Of a stretch of DNA of 64,000 bases, positions 17,236 through 23,241 are shown piece after piece. Both the position numbers and the translations under genes were made by a program. The notes below the pieces were generated by a model. It made no database searches, was not told the DNA's origin, and saw only the letters and a program-made list of their open reading frames with translations. The first letter of the stretch is position 1. The number at the start of each line of letters is the position of its first letter. Source of the DNA: Paraliobacillus sp. PM-2 (lineage in GTDB: Bacteria > Bacillota > Bacilli > Bacillales > Amphibacillaceae); assembly GCF_001368815.1 (NCBI RefSeq), contig NZ_CTEI01000001.1:1302001-1366000 (forward strand), given 5' to 3'.

Positions 17236-18132
17236 TTATTCTGCTTCTGCTAAAGCTTTCTCAGCTAAAGTAAAGAACGAACCTACTTTAATCGTTACTC
17301 CTGAGATTACATCTGTTGCACCTTCATCATTGGTGTATTCAATTGCAGTAGGATCTTGTGTTTCTAATAAATATGCTTCCGCTTTTTCGGCTTGTTCGTG
17401 CCATGGCGCTATAGCACCACCGTTTTCTACCATACCATATTCACCATTAGCAGATACAGTATCTTTGTCATCTCCACCGTCTTTATGAACACCATTCCAA
17501 TCAGCAGCAACTATATTACCATTAACTACTGTTAGATCTACAGTGTATTTCCAACCAGACTTTTCACTAAATTGATCTTCCTCAGCGTGGTATGCACCGT
17601 CTGTATATGGACCTTTTTCTACTGGACCTTTTTCTAGAGCAGTTTCAGCTAAATCAAAGAATTCGATTACATGAATAGATACACCAGAGATTGCATCAGT
17701 ATGACCTTCATCATCTGTGTATTCAATTGCTGTAGGATCTTGATTTTCTATTAAGTATGCTTCCGCTTTTTCTGCTTGTTCATGCCATGGCGCTTGTGCA
17801 CCAGCCTTTTCTACCATACCATATTCCCCGTTAGCAGATACAGTATCTTTGTCATCTCCACCACTTTTATGTGCACCATTCCAGTCGGCAGAAACAATTG
17901 CTCCATCTTCTACTTCAAGAGTAACCATGTATTTCCATCCGCTTTCTTCGGAAAAATTATCTTCTTGAGCAAAATAGATACCGTCTTCATAACTTCCTGT
18001 TTCTTCTGATGCATTATTTTCATCATTATCTGCTGGCGCATCAGCTTCCTCTGTTTCAGTATTACATCCCGCTAATAACAGCACTGAGAAAAGTGCCGTT
18101 AAAGCTACTAATAACCAATTTTTTCTTTTCAT
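17236..18132 (-). CDS. Lipoprotein with two tandem FMN-binding-like domains
   Basis: A secreted lipoprotein of 298 residues (signal peptide and lipobox LLAGC), then an acidic linker and two copies of a domain of about 115 residues. Each copy has GxYxAxEDxFSExSGWKY at the start, the identical core KDTVSANGEYGMVE, APWHEQAEKAEAYL and a final SGVS/SGVT motif. The arrangement resembles PplA-like extracellular electron-transfer lipoproteins, which carry FMN on a threonine in SGAT-type motifs. Here the motifs read ISGVSIHV and ISGVTIKV, so covalent flavin binding is uncertain. The copies are also very alike as DNA, which suggests recent duplication. The start at 18132 follows a GGGGAGG box. An apbE-like flavin transferase gene is not in the window. 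Confidence 0.7.
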   Translation of the reverse strand: MKRKNWLLVALTALFSVLLLAGCNTETEEADAPADNDENNASEETGSYEDGIYFAQEDNFSEESGWKYMVTLEVEDGAIVSADWNGAHKSGGDDKDTVSANGEYGMVEKAGAQAPWHEQAEKAEAYLIENQDPTAIEYTDDEGHTDAISGVSIHVIEFFDLAETALEKGPVEKGPYTDGAYHAEEDQFSEKSGWKYTVDLTVVNGNIVAADWNGVHKDGGDDKDTVSANGEYGMVENGGAIAPWHEQAEKAEAYLLETQDPTAIEYTNDEGATDVISGVTIKVGSFFTLAEKALAEAE

Positions 18133-18151
18133 AAATATCCTCCCCATCTTC

Positions 18152-18193
18152 CTATAATACTAATTGTTCACTACTGAACAATTAGTATTATAG
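18152..18193 (-). promoter_or_regulatory. Perfect 42-nt palindrome before the FMN lipoprotein gene
   Basis: Arms CTATAATACTAATTGTTCA (18152-18170) and TGAACAATTAGTATTATAG (18175-18193), 19 bp each with a 4-nt centre. The distal arm supplies a TATAAT that pairs with TAGACT 18 bp upstream on the minus strand, so the palindrome would cover the -10 and start region and end about 5 nt before the ribosome site. It looks like a repressor operator or a leader hairpin. Confidence 0.65.
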
Positions 18194-18307: not shown

Positions 18308-18340
18308 AAAAAAATTGCCCAAACAAGGGGCAATTTTTTT
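18308..18340 (-). terminator. Terminator of the downstream betaine-binding protein gene
   Basis: Stem AAATTGCCC / GGGCAATTT with a T run on the minus strand; it overlaps the stop codon of the gene. It isolates the gene from the FMN lipoprotein. Confidence 0.8.
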
Positions 18341-19244
18341 ATTTATTAGGTTTTAAATCTTCAATTGAATCAATTTCCATATAGGCAGGAACAACTAGTC
18401 CTAATTTAGCACCTTCTAAGTTAGGTCCTAAATCGGTTACTTTACCTTTATACTCTTCATAAAATGAACCATGAGTCTCTGGTAACCATGGTGCAACAGA
18501 TGCATCAGCATCGTTTGTCGCTACTGCCTGAAACATTACGGCTGGATCTACAGGCGTATCTGTCACTTCATACCCAAGGCTTGTCAATACATTCGCAACT
18601 ACAGATGTAGAAGCACGCTCCGTGTCCCAAGGTGTGGATACAAGTTCAATTTCTTGACCATCTACTTTATCGATCCCTTCAGTCCATTCGGCTACTTTAT
18701 CTTCATTTTCTTCAATCCATTGGTCAGCAGCTTCTTTAAAACTCATATCTTTTTCTTGAGTCATTAACATAACAGATTCCATATCTTCTACTTCCCAGTA
18801 AAAACGATCAAGAACTGTATAAGCTTCTGGCATGTCCTCTTCTAATCCTAATCGAGTAATCGTATTAATATTTTCTGCCTTACCAAATGAACCTTCTGGA
18901 TCTTCTAGAAATTTTAAATCATATTTTGCAAACTTCCAATGTGGTGTCCAACCAGTAACAACGATCGGTTCTTCTTTATCAATTGCTTCATCTAATGAAG
19001 TTAACATTGCCGCTGTAGAACTTTCTTCTAATGAATATCCTTCTAAGTTAGAATAATCTTCTAATGCTTTTTCAGTTAATGTAGTTATTCCTGCACCTGG
19101 TTCAATACCGGTAATGGTATAATCTATTGCCTTACCTACTTCTTCTGTTTGTCCTTCGTCATTTTTAGATCCACATGCTGCGATTATGCTAATAACTAAT
19201 ACTACTAATCCAAATAAAATAAAAGGTTTACATTTTTTTAACAC
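18339..19244 (-). CDS. opuAC: Glycine betaine-binding lipoprotein, B. subtilis OpuAC lobe order
   Basis: A lipoprotein of 301 residues (lipobox IAAC, Cys24). The TITGIEPGAG-containing lobe comes first (about 40-190) and the WDTExAST-containing lobe second (about 197-301), the same order as B. subtilis OpuAC as I remember it. Aromatic-cage tryptophans are W99 (TGWTPHW), W206 (PWDTE) and W253 (APWLP). It delivers glycine betaine or related solutes to an OpuAB-type permease. It starts with GTG at 19244 behind AAGGAGG. A terminator lies between it and the upstream copy, so it probably has a separate promoter, but none was clear. Confidence 0.88.
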   Translation of the reverse strand: MLKKCKPFILFGLVVLVISIIAACGSKNDEGQTEEVGKAIDYTITGIEPGAGITTLTEKALEDYSNLEGYSLEESSTAAMLTSLDEAIDKEEPIVVTGWTPHWKFAKYDLKFLEDPEGSFGKAENINTITRLGLEEDMPEAYTVLDRFYWEVEDMESVMLMTQEKDMSFKEAADQWIEENEDKVAEWTEGIDKVDGQEIELVSTPWDTERASTSVVANVLTSLGYEVTDTPVDPAVMFQAVATNDADASVAPWLPETHGSFYEEYKGKVTDLGPNLEGAKLGLVVPAYMEIDSIEDLKPNK

Positions 19245-19328
19245 TGTACATTCCTCCTTATGTTTTATGAATGCGTTTTTATTTTTTATTTTGCATATAA
19301 TGGAAACTTAGATAAAAGAGTTTTTTAT

Positions 19329-19366
19329 AAAAAAGCTACCTTTAGTACTTCTAAAGGTAGCTTTTT
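19329..19366 (-). terminator. Terminator between the two betaine-binding protein genes
   Basis: Arms AAAAAGCTACCTTTAG / CTAAAGGTAGCTTTTT with a 5-nt loop, ending the opuAA-opuAB-opuAC-type transcript. Confidence 0.85.
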
Positions 19367-19391
19367 AGTTAATGGAATAAACATGTTAAAG

Positions 19392-20303
19392 TTATTCTAA
19401 ACCAGCAGTCCATTCATCAACTTTATCTTGGTTGTTTTCGATCCAGTTAGCAGCTGCTTCTTCAGGATCAGTTCCGTTTTGAATTTCAAGCATAACGGAT
19501 TCGATATCCGCTGGTGACCAAGCAAAATTATCTAACACTTGATAAGCTACAGGGCTATCCTCTTCTAAACCTTCACGTACCATTGTTCCAATAATTTCTT
19601 CTTCTCCAAATGAGCCTTCTGGATCTTCTAGATATTTAAGATCATACTTACTGAATTTCCAGTGTGGTGACCAACCAGTAACAACAATTGGTTCTTCATT
19701 TTCAATTGCTTCACCTAATGCAGTTGCCATTGCACCACTAGAAGAAGTTTCAACAGAGAAACTATCTAAACCGTAATCCTCTACAGACTGTTCAGCAGCT
19801 TGAACGACACCTGCACCTGGCTCGATACCAGTAATTGTGCTATCCAATTCACCTGCTACATCTTTAAGATCACCAATCGTTGTAACATCCATATATTGAG
19901 GTACTACTAAGCCGATTTTTGCTCCTTCAAGGTTTGCACCTAAATCCACTAATTGATCCTTATATTCCTCATATAATTTACCGTGTGTTCCTGGTAACCA
20001 AGCAGCTACCATACCATCTGCATCGCCAGTAGCAACAGATTGCCACATAACAGCATTATCTAATGGTGTAACAGATACATCGTATCCTTGTTCTTCAAGA
20101 ACTTGAGCAATAACATTGGTAGAAGCAACCTCAGTATCCCACTCAACATATACAAGCTCAATCTCTTCATTCCCTAAATTTGATGTATCTTCTCCATTAT
20201 TATCATCAGATGATGTATCATCTTCTCCACCACATGCAGCCAATACAAGTGATAGCATAAGTACAAACACTAAACCTAAGTGTTTCCATGTAAATTTAAA
20301 CAT
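19392..20303 (-). CDS. Glycine betaine-binding lipoprotein with swapped lobe order
   Basis: A lipoprotein of 303 residues (lipobox LAAC, Cys24) with an acidic linker. Its lobes come in the opposite order to the neighbouring gene: the WDTExAST lobe first (about 47-150) and the TITGIEPGAG lobe second (about 151-303). The cage tryptophans are W55 (EWDTE), W102 (AAWLP) and W211 (TGWSPHW). It is thus a circular permutant that keeps the ligand site. It is the third gene after opuAA and opuAB, with a stem-loop in the 80-bp gap, and is followed by a strong terminator, so it is the likely operon-encoded partner of this permease. Confidence 0.88.
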   Translation of the reverse strand: MFKFTWKHLGLVFVLMLSLVLAACGGEDDTSSDDNNGEDTSNLGNEEIELVYVEWDTEVASTNVIAQVLEEQGYDVSVTPLDNAVMWQSVATGDADGMVAAWLPGTHGKLYEEYKDQLVDLGANLEGAKIGLVVPQYMDVTTIGDLKDVAGELDSTITGIEPGAGVVQAAEQSVEDYGLDSFSVETSSSGAMATALGEAIENEEPIVVTGWSPHWKFSKYDLKYLEDPEGSFGEEEIIGTMVREGLEEDSPVAYQVLDNFAWSPADIESVMLEIQNGTDPEEAAANWIENNQDKVDEWTAGLE

Positions 20304-20383: not shown

Positions 20384-21229
20384 TTAATCTGCTTTACCTT
20401 TATTTAAGTTTTGTGTAAAGCGATCAACAATAATAGCTAAAATAACAATACCAATACCAGCAACAAACCCTGAACCTACTTGAGCACGTTGTAGTGCAGA
20501 TAATACATCTCTTCCAAGTCCAGGTGCACCGATCATTGATGCAATAACAACCATGGACAACGATAACATAACTGTTTGGTTAATTCCAGCCATGATCGTA
20601 CTCTTTGCCATTGGTAATTCTACTTTAAATAGCTTTTGCGTTCCTGTACTACCAAATGCTTCAGAAGCCTCTACTAACTCTTCAGAAACTTGTCTAATAC
20701 CTAAGTTCGTAAATCGAACAGTTGGTGGCGTAGCAAAAATTAATGATGCAAAGATACCTGGTACCATACCGATACTGAAAAATGCTACGGCAGGGATTAA
20801 ATAAACAAATGCGGGCATGGTCTGCATAAAGTCTAAAATTGGTGTAATTATTGTCTCTGCAATTTTACTTTTTGACATTAAAATACCTACTGGCACACCA
20901 ATAATAACAGACAACAAACTAGCAATAAGGACTAATGCAAAAGTACTCATTAATTGTTCCCATAATCCTTGGTTATAAATTAACCATAAACCAACAACTG
21001 AAAACGCTGCTAAGCCAAACTTTTTTCCTGTGATAAAAAATGCAAGAATAGCAACTATAAGAATGACAATAATTGGCGGAATTGCAGCTAATTGTTCAGC
21101 GAAGAACTCCATGAAGTCTCCGAATTGGTTCTTAATTGGATCAAAAATAAATGAAAATGTATCTGTTAACCAATCTGTAAAATCACTAATCCACTTAGAT
21201 AATGGTATTTCTGGTAAAAAATCAAGCAT
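20384..21229 (-). CDS. opuAB: Glycine betaine ABC transporter permease OpuAB
   Basis: A permease of 281 residues with an N-terminal amphipathic part ([19 protein letters not shown]) and about six membrane segments, almost the same length as B. subtilis OpuAB. The EAA-type loop, which contacts the ATPase, is [30 protein letters not shown]. The frame extends 12 codons upstream into opuAA, but the ATG at 21229 has a GAGG box and overlaps the opuAA stop by 8 bp, so translation is coupled. It transports glycine betaine into the cell under osmotic stress. Confidence 0.92.
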
Positions 21230-22418
21230 CTGCTTCAACCTCACTTTCTCCGGCCAATGCTGCAATTACTGCACCACGAACGATAATTCCTTGTAGCTTA
21301 CTATTTTCTACAACAGCTACTGGTACAGGCGTATCATGAATAATCTCAAATATTTCTTGCATTGGTTTATCTCTGTCAACAGTAGGTACATCTGTTTTTA
21401 AGATTTGATTTAAATCACGAATTTCATTTTTACGTGCCTCAGATGCATCATCCGCTGTTACATACCCTTTTAAGTTACGTTTACCATCAATAACGTAAAT
21501 ACTAGATAAACCTTCTTCGCGCATGCGTTCTAAAGCAACACGTGGACCGTGTTTTTCTATATTTACTGTTTCCGGACGTTTCATAATATGTTCTGCTGTT
21601 AATACCTTTGAACGATCTACGTCTTCTACGAATTTTTCCACATAATCGTTAGCCGGATTAACCAAGATTTCTTCCGGTGTTCCAATCTGCACAATTGAAC
21701 CATCTTTCATTAGTGCAATACGGTCACCAATGCGAAGTGCCTCATCCAAATCGTGTGTTATAAACACAATTGTTTTTTGCATTTTTTCTTGTAAATCCAA
21801 TAGTTCATCTTGCATATCCTTACGTATTAATGGGTCCAACGCAGAAAATGCTTCATCCATTAATAGTACTTCTGGATCGTTAGCTAAAGCACGAGCTAGT
21901 CCAACACGTTGTTGCATCCCACCAGATAGTTGTCCAGGAAATTGATTTATATAGCTTCCTAATCCAACTAGTTCTAATGCTTCTTTCGCTTTTTTACCAC
22001 GATCTTCTTTTTCAACACCTTGTATTTCCAAGCCAAACTCCGCATTTTCCAAAATGGTACGGAATGGGAACAATGCAAAACGTTGGAATACCATACTTAA
22101 TTTTTCTCTGCGCACACGACGAAGGTCATCTTTGTTCATTGTTGCTAAATTTTCTCCACCAACAAATACACTGCCTTCTGTCGGTTCAATCAAACGATTG
22201 ATTAAGCGTACTAAAGTAGATTTACCACTACCGGATAGTCCCATAATAACAAAGACTTCTCCTTCTTCTACTTCAAAAGATGCACGGTTCACACCGACTG
22301 TGTCACCTGTTTGTTTCAATATCTCTTCTTTTTTCATACCTTCATCTAAGAGCCTTAATGATTCTTTTGTATTTTTACCAAATACTTTTGACAGGCCCTC
22401 TACTTTTATTATAGGCAT
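21222..22418 (-). CDS. opuAA: Glycine betaine ABC transporter ATP-binding protein OpuAA
   Basis: An ATPase subunit of 398 residues. Walker A is GLSGSGKST, the signature is LSGGMQQR, Walker B is [13 protein letters not shown] and the switch His is in FITHDLDEA. Two C-terminal CBS domains (from about residue 275) are typical for osmoregulated betaine transporters, where they sense ionic strength or nucleotides. The longer frame from 22457 lacks a ribosome site; the ATG at 22418 has GAGAGGTG. It is the first gene of the opuA operon and divergent from a GbsR-type regulator. Confidence 0.93.
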
Positions 22419-22549
22419 GCTTTTCACCTCTCTAACTTTCTTTATCGACATAAACATTTAACAGTACCCATAATTATCACTTTTCAAACAAATTTTATAT
22501 TCAAGTGGAATCTGATTACTGTTTTTCGCTCATAAATAGCTACTGTAAT

Positions 22550-22579: not shown

Positions 22580-22611
22580 ACGATAAATACCATTGATTTT
22601 GCGTATTTTTT

Positions 22612-22633
22612 CCGTACAGTTTAAACTGTACGG
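22612..22633. promoter_or_regulatory. Perfect 22-bp palindrome, candidate GbsR-type operator
   Basis: Arms CCGTACAGTTT / AAACTGTACGG without spacer, in the divergent region between opuAA and the GbsR-type gene. The remaining part of this 340-bp gap holds only the two candidate promoters. Confidence 0.55.
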
Positions 22634-22758
22634 ACTTTATATACTTTTTTCTTCTTTTTCCTCTAATTTGCTTTGTTTTTTATACAGATTCATGATTTTC
22701 TTTCTTCACAATTATAGTGTAACCTTTATTCAGTATCTTATTTATATAGGAGGATAAA

Positions 22759-23241
22759 ATGGCAATAAACACGAAAGAAGCTATTTATCAAACCATTATT
22801 AATGAATTCTCAAAAACCATTGAATTTTTTGATATATCTCCTTCGGAAGCGCGCTTATTTTCCATGTTATATCTTGAAGGCTCACCCATGACATTGGATG
22901 AAATGAGTGAAACACTTGGTAAAAGTAAAACTTCGGTTAGCACTGGAATACGAACATTATTAGATTCAAATCTTGTAAGACGTGTATGGAAAAAGGGTGT
23001 ACGAAAAGATCTATATGCAACAAACAACGATTTATATCGAAAATTCATGCAAGCATATATTAATAAGTGGATGGAACACACAATAAATCAAAATAATACA
23101 CTTATTGATATTGAAAAAAACATTAGACATACAAATATTTCAGTAGAAGAAAAAGAATTATTAAATAAATTATCTACTATTATTGCTTTTCATACCTCCA
23201 TTGAAGAGGCTTTTTCAAAGATAAATCCTAAACAAAATTAA
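22759..23241 (+). CDS. GbsR/MarR-type transcriptional regulator
   Basis: A protein of 160 residues with a winged helix (FDISPSEARLFSMLYLEGSPMTLDEMSETLG, then SKTSVSTGIRTLL as recognition helix and a basic VWKKGVRKDLY wing). This pattern is typical of the GbsR family, which represses betaine uptake or choline-to-betaine synthesis genes in Bacillus (GbsR, OpcR). Its divergent position next to opuA indicates that it controls that operon, perhaps through the palindrome at 22612. It shares the DNA-binding part with the second GbsR-type gene at 26918. A GGAGG box precedes the ATG. Confidence 0.85.
   Translation: MAINTKEAIYQTIINEFSKTIEFFDISPSEARLFSMLYLEGSPMTLDEMSETLGKSKTSVSTGIRTLLDSNLVRRVWKKGVRKDLYATNNDLYRKFMQAYINKWMEHTINQNNTLIDIEKNIRHTNISVEEKELLNKLSTIIAFHTSIEEAFSKINPKQN

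Follow-up and report, generated by a model that had tools for sequence, protein, structure and literature searches.

Organization of the opuA locus

The window, by which the whole analysed stretch of 64,000 nucleotides from Paraliobacillus sp. PM-2 is meant, contains on its minus strand the genes of an ATPase (opuAA), a permease (opuAB) and two binding proteins (SBPs), which follow one another in the order opuAA, opuAB, P0002 gene, P0001 gene (Table 1). The host of these paired SBP genes is a salt-tolerant bacterium. Both SBPs are composed of two lobes, here termed lobe A (with the motif WDTExAST) and lobe B (with the motif TITGIEPGAG), and are described by their lobe order as A-B or B-A. The open reading frame (ORF) of P0001 has a GTG start and is preceded by AAGGAGGA. 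The SBP genes adjoin the genes of a ProV-type ATPase with CBS domains and of one permease, which is the layout of an OpuA-type importer, and they most likely encode two binding-protein subunits of one predicted OpuA-type importer for glycine betaine and proline betaine.

The best NCBIfam match of the divergently encoded regulator was CudC, below the cut-off; the name OpuAR is based on its position and on the description in PMC6207618. A perfect palindrome, TCCGTACAGTTTAAACTGTACGGA, lies in the regulator/opuAA intergenic region. With up to four mismatches allowed, the core of the palindrome, GTACAGTTTAAACTGTAC, was present in 34 of 35 such regions (L039 and L071 among the 35 are from the same species) and in 1 of 700 single-base shuffles used as control, and the palindrome is a candidate operator of GbsR/OpuAR regulators. 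Another perfect inverted repeat of 19 bp with a 4-base loop holds a TATAAT motif, is positioned directly upstream of the adjacent lipoprotein gene and is possibly an operator as well. The product of this gene consists of two very similar halves without a Pfam match and resembles the flavoprotein PplA only weakly (55.5 bits, cut-off 325).

Table 1. Features of the opuA locus and its surroundings (positions in the window)
Position	Strand	Feature	Size or evidence
17236-18147		lipoprotein gene with two very similar halves	
18152-18193		perfect inverted repeat, possible operator	
18339-19244	-	second SBP gene, P0001, lipoprotein, order B-A as in B. subtilis OpuAC; probable old paralogue	301 aa
19330-19366	-	terminator-like hairpin between the two SBP genes, 16 bp stem and T-run	-20.7 kcal/mol, z -5.7
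19392-20303	-	first SBP gene, P0002, lipoprotein, order A-B as in the L. lactis OpuA domain; putative re-permuted form	303 aa
20384-21265	-	opuAB, permease	profile matches
21222-22457	-	opuAA, ATPase with two CBS domains	profile matches
22611-22634	.	perfect 24-bp palindrome, candidate operator of the regulator	sequence
22614-22631		core of the palindrome	
22759-23241	+	GbsR/OpuAR-type regulator, divergent	MarR_2 match just over cut-off; CudC-like below cut-off

Circular permutation of the two binding proteins

Both ORFs reported by the initial annotation were recovered, and its observation that the two neighbours are circular permutants of each other is confirmed. Aligned lobe by lobe, P0001 and P0002 proved homologous after the proposed lobe swap, with 64.4% identity over 101 aa in lobe A and 61.7% over 149 aa in lobe B; alignment of lobe A with lobe B of the two proteins gave no match. 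Whole-protein BLASTP returned two swapped pieces, pairing residues 31-192 of P0001 with 144-303 of P0002 and residues 197-298 with 46-147. Local alignment of the mature proteins scored 488 in linear form and 799 against a doubled P0002, and chance resemblance is ruled out by these scores, given a maximum of 87 among 200 shuffled controls. Full homology is reached only once one end of the protein is moved to the other, which characterizes a natural circular permutant. P0001 was matched in two swapped pieces by the Pfam profile OpuAC (PF04069), which matched P0002 in one piece (2-257), with scores of 208 bits and 230 bits, respectively, and a curated cut-off of 21.2; among the eight PF04069 genes of the genome only P0001 was matched in this swapped manner.

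The tryptophans of the ligand cage are located where the initial annotation had placed them, W55, W102 and W211 in P0002 and W206, W253 and W99 in P0001, and they align to the tryptophans of solved OpuAC chains. In the two SBP groups defined below, all 108 proteins of the first type and all 45 of the second have tryptophan at the cage columns (153/153).

Comparison with solved structures leads to the same picture. P0001 is colinear with B. subtilis OpuAC (PDB 2b4l, E 1.4e-78), whose B-A order the initial annotation had stated correctly, and P0002 with the L. lactis OpuA domain (PDB 3l6g, E 3e-92). AlphaFold2 models were obtained for both proteins, with a mean pLDDT of 86.4 for P0001 and 83.3 for P0002. 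The best match of the P0001 model was 2b4m (Z 33.8, rmsd 2.1, 260 aligned residues), and the P0002 model matched 3l6h (Z 35.5, rmsd 1.4, 253 aligned residues), with 3tmg tying at Z 35.8; through these separate matches the models suggest that both proteins have the same fold. Neither these matches nor the lobe alignments gave a result of the kind that the initial annotation had named as a refutation. Most of the solved betaine-binding proteins matched have A-B order, and Foldseek matches of P0001 to such proteins were half-length or poorly fitting, as expected for a permutant. The structures of B. subtilis and L. lactis OpuAC have been described to superpose at 0.98 Å, with near-identical binding sites (Wolters et al., PMC2861598).

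Lobe orders in related operons

Two samples of related loci were compiled. For the first, an alignment of six B-A proteins served as query and the best 80 of 309 loci were kept, a selection biased towards B-A. Both orders stood side by side in 26 of these best 80 loci, as opuAA-opuAB-AB-BA in 22 and as opuAA-opuAB-BA-AB in four (L072, L080, L097 and L125, from Ureibacillus, Lysinibacillus and a Bacillus MAG); BA-BA and a single BA were found in five loci each. The other 44 of the 80 loci had no opuAB within the stretch examined, which in L094 and L140 begins less than 2 kb upstream, and because of these loci second-type proteins may serve elsewhere too. Arrays of two or three B-A genes, with no opuAB in the stretch examined, were observed at L119:2778-5834, L124:3838-5834 and L131:2288-5891.

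The second sample was chosen by OpuAB, for which 397 genomes of the order were searched and 255 gave a match. At an OpuAB identity of at least 65%, 62 regions cover 63 of the 67 matches listed, the remaining four (G000, G009, G017 and G021) being already included; 18 hand-picked matches of lower identity bring the total to 80 regions with 81 operons. Among these OpuAB matches listed, 9 of the 81 operons carry both orders side by side (AB-BA), 44 have BA only, 20 AB only, three BA-BA and one a BA protein fused to the permease, and in four no SBP was detected. The fused form (L260:2744-4486) comprises a B-A binding protein and permease in one ORF of 580 aa; together with L. lactis OpuA, which is a fused A-B form, it means that both lobe orders occur fused as well as free.

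Pooling of all loci gave 134 distinct operons, namely 62 BA, 31 AB-BA, 29 AB, eight BA-BA and four BA-AB. The pair that had been put forward as new is thus not special to this operon, as it recurs in both samples and in both gene orders.

Origin of the pair

For phylogenetic analysis, the 177 SBPs of the 134 operons were split into lobes, aligned in one order and subjected to FastTree; a truncated copy, L008_2554, was omitted from the trees. The resulting tree separates two groups. The first type contains 108 proteins, 62 A-B and 46 B-A intermixed, which usually adjoin opuAB, and the second type is a clade of its own with 45 proteins, all B-A and including P0001, six of which stand first in their operon. 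The second protein of P. salinarum shares 83% identity with P0001 and its counterpart in Ureibacillus acetophenoni 72%; the values are 65% for the best-matching B-A protein of the first type and 62.9% for the neighbour P0002, to which P0001 is no closer than to the A-B proteins of other species.

The scenario of the initial annotation, in which the neighbours arose from each other by one local tandem duplication with permutation of one copy, would be in keeping with the adjacency of the genes and with lobes that are 62-64% identical. It is contradicted by the higher identity of P0001 to second proteins elsewhere, by its lack of any particular closeness to its own neighbour and by the separate clade of second-type proteins, and we regard it as very improbable. 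A local origin of the pair was rejected on these grounds, and recent gene conversion between the neighbours was rejected as well, since P0002 stands no nearer to P0001 than other A-B proteins do. Because P0001 is nearer to foreign second proteins and because operons with two B-A proteins exist, the duplication is likely to predate the permutation. This relative age is likely rather than proven because the placement of the second-type clade is unstable: it was sister to the first-type group in the FastTree analysis, but within the first type next to L148 and L011 in IQ-TREE (node 93; 69 in the 65-sequence tree).

Relative to other opuA operons, the permuted gene is probably the first one. Of the lower-identity matches picked by hand (18 loci, OpuAB identity 54-61%, one of them fused), 16 were B-A, none was A-B, and in two no SBP was detected, so that B-A is the most likely order of the opuA ancestor and the A-B order of the first gene is most likely the product of re-permutation. 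Two operons at about 50% OpuAB identity, L002 of this genome and L037, carry A-B; because of them the deepest state is A-B, in line with A-B as the general superfamily order, and the inferred polarity depends on the 54-61% band.

Polarity was also addressed by a tree of 65 sequences with ten distant A-B proteins as outgroup, which took 22 of 38 first-type A-B proteins and eight second-type proteins drawn from the 13 of another tree set. In this tree the first-type A-B proteins are nested among the B-A proteins (nodes 98 and 100). Within the first-type group, support along most of the backbone is weak (20-69), and the IQ-TREE analyses all relied on short searches. Direct descent of the first-type A-B proteins from the superfamily order, never via B-A and with several origins of B-A, would agree with the A-B order of most solved betaine-binding proteins matched and of the distant L002 and L037. 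The same 65 sequences reject the hypothesis that A-B never changed, if marginally (AU p=0.039), and the first-type A-B proteins, nested as they are among the B-A proteins, share up to 82% identity with them; this line of descent therefore appears improbable to us.

Number of switches and probable exchange between operons

The closest first-type pair of opposite order, from Virgibacillus oceani (L111) and G023 (L047), is 82.5% identical over 251 columns, with 71% identity in OpuAB and 82% in OpuAA. For the trees of 75 sequences, only first-type proteins and outgroups from operons with full opuAA and opuAB were used, and the initial 105 sequences were reduced by removing any that exceeded 86% identity to a retained sequence with the same order. 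A single switch of lobe order was not rejected by the SBP data (AU p 0.20-0.22) or by the individual lobes (0.42, 0.45), for which the unconstrained trees were built in fast mode. On the transporter tree (OpuAA and OpuAB of 75 operons), the A-B operons as one clade, and with it a single change of lobe order, were rejected with p 4e-67. The transporter topology is in turn rejected when tested against the SBP data (p 3e-11), and the conflict persists in sets restricted to A-B (39 sequences, p 1.7e-4) or to B-A (36 sequences, p 2e-9). Since the two trees conflict so strongly, binding-protein genes have apparently been exchanged between operons regardless of lobe order, which would imply that one permease type may accept both orders. 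The earlier suggestion that one permease is used by two binding proteins is plausible.

How often the order itself changed is a related question. The most parsimonious number of changes is three on the SBP tree and nine on the transporter tree, in which well supported nodes unite three A-B with three B-A operons (100), L051 (B-A) with L084 and L181 (A-B) (99) and L043 (B-A) with L099 (A-B) (98). These counts and mixed nodes would favour several independent switches in the first-type protein, either three or more from B-A to A-B or back and forth, as would the occurrence of both orders within Virgibacillus and Aquibacillus (for L051 by putative assignment) and the linkers of the A-B proteins, which among the 21 readable of 62 measure 13 residues in eight, 16 in 11 and 14 and 18 in one each. 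This reading is unlikely in our judgement, as a single switch is not rejected by the SBP data or by the single lobes, and as the SBPs of transporter sisters with opposite order are only 64-66% (L084 and L181 with L051) or 70% (L099 with L043) identical, which argues for replacement rather than permutation in place. The transporters of L084 (Aquibacillus sediminis, A-B) and L051 (putative A. kalidii, B-A), for example, are 82-88% identical, their SBPs 64.5%.

With regard to the mutational route, the alignment of A-B with B-A orthologues extends to the signal region in 10 of the 11 pairs examined, with 36-79% identity over 24-61 residues, and the swap therefore probably happened behind a retained 5′ end. 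In the described 'permutation by duplication', a tandem duplication is followed by trimming (PMC3320104), a route that fits the case, tandem B-A arrays existing at L119 and L131. ORFs with three or more lobes (A-B-A or B-A-B) were not found among the ORFs of the sampled loci. At L148:3893-4900, a B-A protein was observed that shares 86% identity in lobe A with the A-B protein L213 but, in lobe B, at most 71% with any of the 177 SBPs; it is possibly a lobe chimera.

Taken together, the explanation that we favour, and hold to be reasonably probable, is that the second protein is an old B-A paralogue and the first a B-A protein that was permuted back to A-B and then exchanged among operons. P0001 would have kept the ancestral opuA order of B. 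subtilis OpuAC. The ancestor of P0002 would have been a B-A protein that was circularly permuted behind its retained signal peptide, presumably by tandem duplication and trimming, and would thereby have regained the order of most solved betaine-binding proteins, after which first-type SBPs of either order would have replaced one another in the opuA operons of the group. Both lipoproteins are predicted to close on betaine via the same cage of three tryptophans and to dock on the same OpuAB homodimer with one lobe per subunit. P0001 may have been retained since its pocket surroundings and its expression differ, probably with another affinity or ligand range and a putative division of labour between the two proteins.

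Ligand, expression and docking of the second protein

Several sites near the cage distinguish the two types. Position 238 of the second type is phenylalanine in 44 of 45 proteins, compared with W87 in 108 of 108 first-type proteins; positions 203-205, directly before the cage residue W206, are mostly S, T and P; P or V is present at position 234 for N83, and I53 replaces V166. As these conserved differences adjoin the cage, they suggest an altered affinity or ligand range of the second-type protein.

A redundant or decaying second copy without a role of its own could explain why many operons have one SBP only (44 B-A and 20 A-B of 81 among the OpuAB matches listed) and why the second SBP of L043 is split. 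In the latter (L043:2762-3732) the B and A lobes lie in separate frames, probably as a result of a frameshift. Such redundancy is nevertheless quite improbable in view of the 31 A-B/B-A and four B-A/A-B pairs in 134 distinct operons, the invariant cage tryptophans of the second type and its clade-specific conserved sites.

Terminator-like hairpins were found in 29 of 43 SBP pairs and, by layout, in 21 of 31 AB-BA, eight of eight BA-BA and none of four BA-AB pairs, all of these being raw counts without shuffled control; in four other pairs the SBP genes overlap. Because a hairpin separates the two SBP genes of this genome, expression of the P0001 gene is probably either separate or dependent on read-through.

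In L. lactis OpuA, the Val149 residues of the two subunits are described to contact different lobes of a single docked domain, and SBPs that use the same transporter to compete for one docking site (PMC11065425). With one lobe contacted by each Val149, docking on a homodimer should be little affected by lobe order. We infer that competition and a split of ligands may take place at this operon.

Relation to known systems and significance

Natural circular permutants are usually compared over large distances. Two binding proteins with different ligands and one permease are exemplified by HisJ and ArgT. Of the solved relatives, B. subtilis OpuAC (2b4l/2b4m) shares with P0001 the B-A order, the cage tryptophans, the lipoprotein nature and colinearity; P0001 differs from it by its place in the separate second-type clade and by the changed sites near the cage, and the B. 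subtilis OpuA system is described as a three-part system with one SBP (PMC6207618), compared with two SBP genes here. The L. lactis OpuA domain (3l6g/3l6h, 7ahc) has the A-B order and the cage of P0002, is colinear with it and groups among the first-type A-B proteins, but is fused to the permease, whereas P0002 is a separate lipoprotein.

Neither the two lobe orders nor circular permutation in betaine-binding proteins is new: 2b4l, 1r9l and 1sw1 were assigned to one circular-permutation family by CPSARST (PMC2395249). The pairs of that family are given there with less than 24% identity, whereas the orthologues described here reach 82% and both orders are found in one operon. TpMglB-2 of Treponema is likewise a naturally permuted binding protein that still binds its ligand; it belongs to another family, its cut is inside a lobe, and the excerpted report mentions no unpermuted partner gene (PMC4990184). 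Two binding units per permease are known as well, for instance from GlnPQ, where two units with different ligands serve one transporter and, in the excerpts of the reports, are not described as permutants (PMC8025302, PMC11331510). In the open-licence literature, outside of which most subscription papers fall, no account was found of both lobe orders side by side behind a single permease or of permuted orthologues this close.

For natural permutation, a distance as small as that between opposite-order orthologues of up to 82% identity is unusual, and these orthologues occupy the same place in the operon, have much of the signal region in common and occur together with a paralogue in which the other order is retained. 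One practical consequence is that surveys by colinear profiles can miscount such proteins, because a profile of this kind splits or halves one of the orders, as was the case with Pfam here. With sequences of opposite order this close and one transporter for both, it becomes possible to test by which route a natural permutation arises, what it costs and how it affects function, above all with respect to the lobe that is lipid-anchored. A bolder proposal, tentative and on the doubtful side, is that lobe order flipped repeatedly, also recently among close relatives, and that both orders are freely interchangeable on one permease; if this were true, the opuA locus would represent a natural series of permutation experiments, with paired permutants sharing one transporter.
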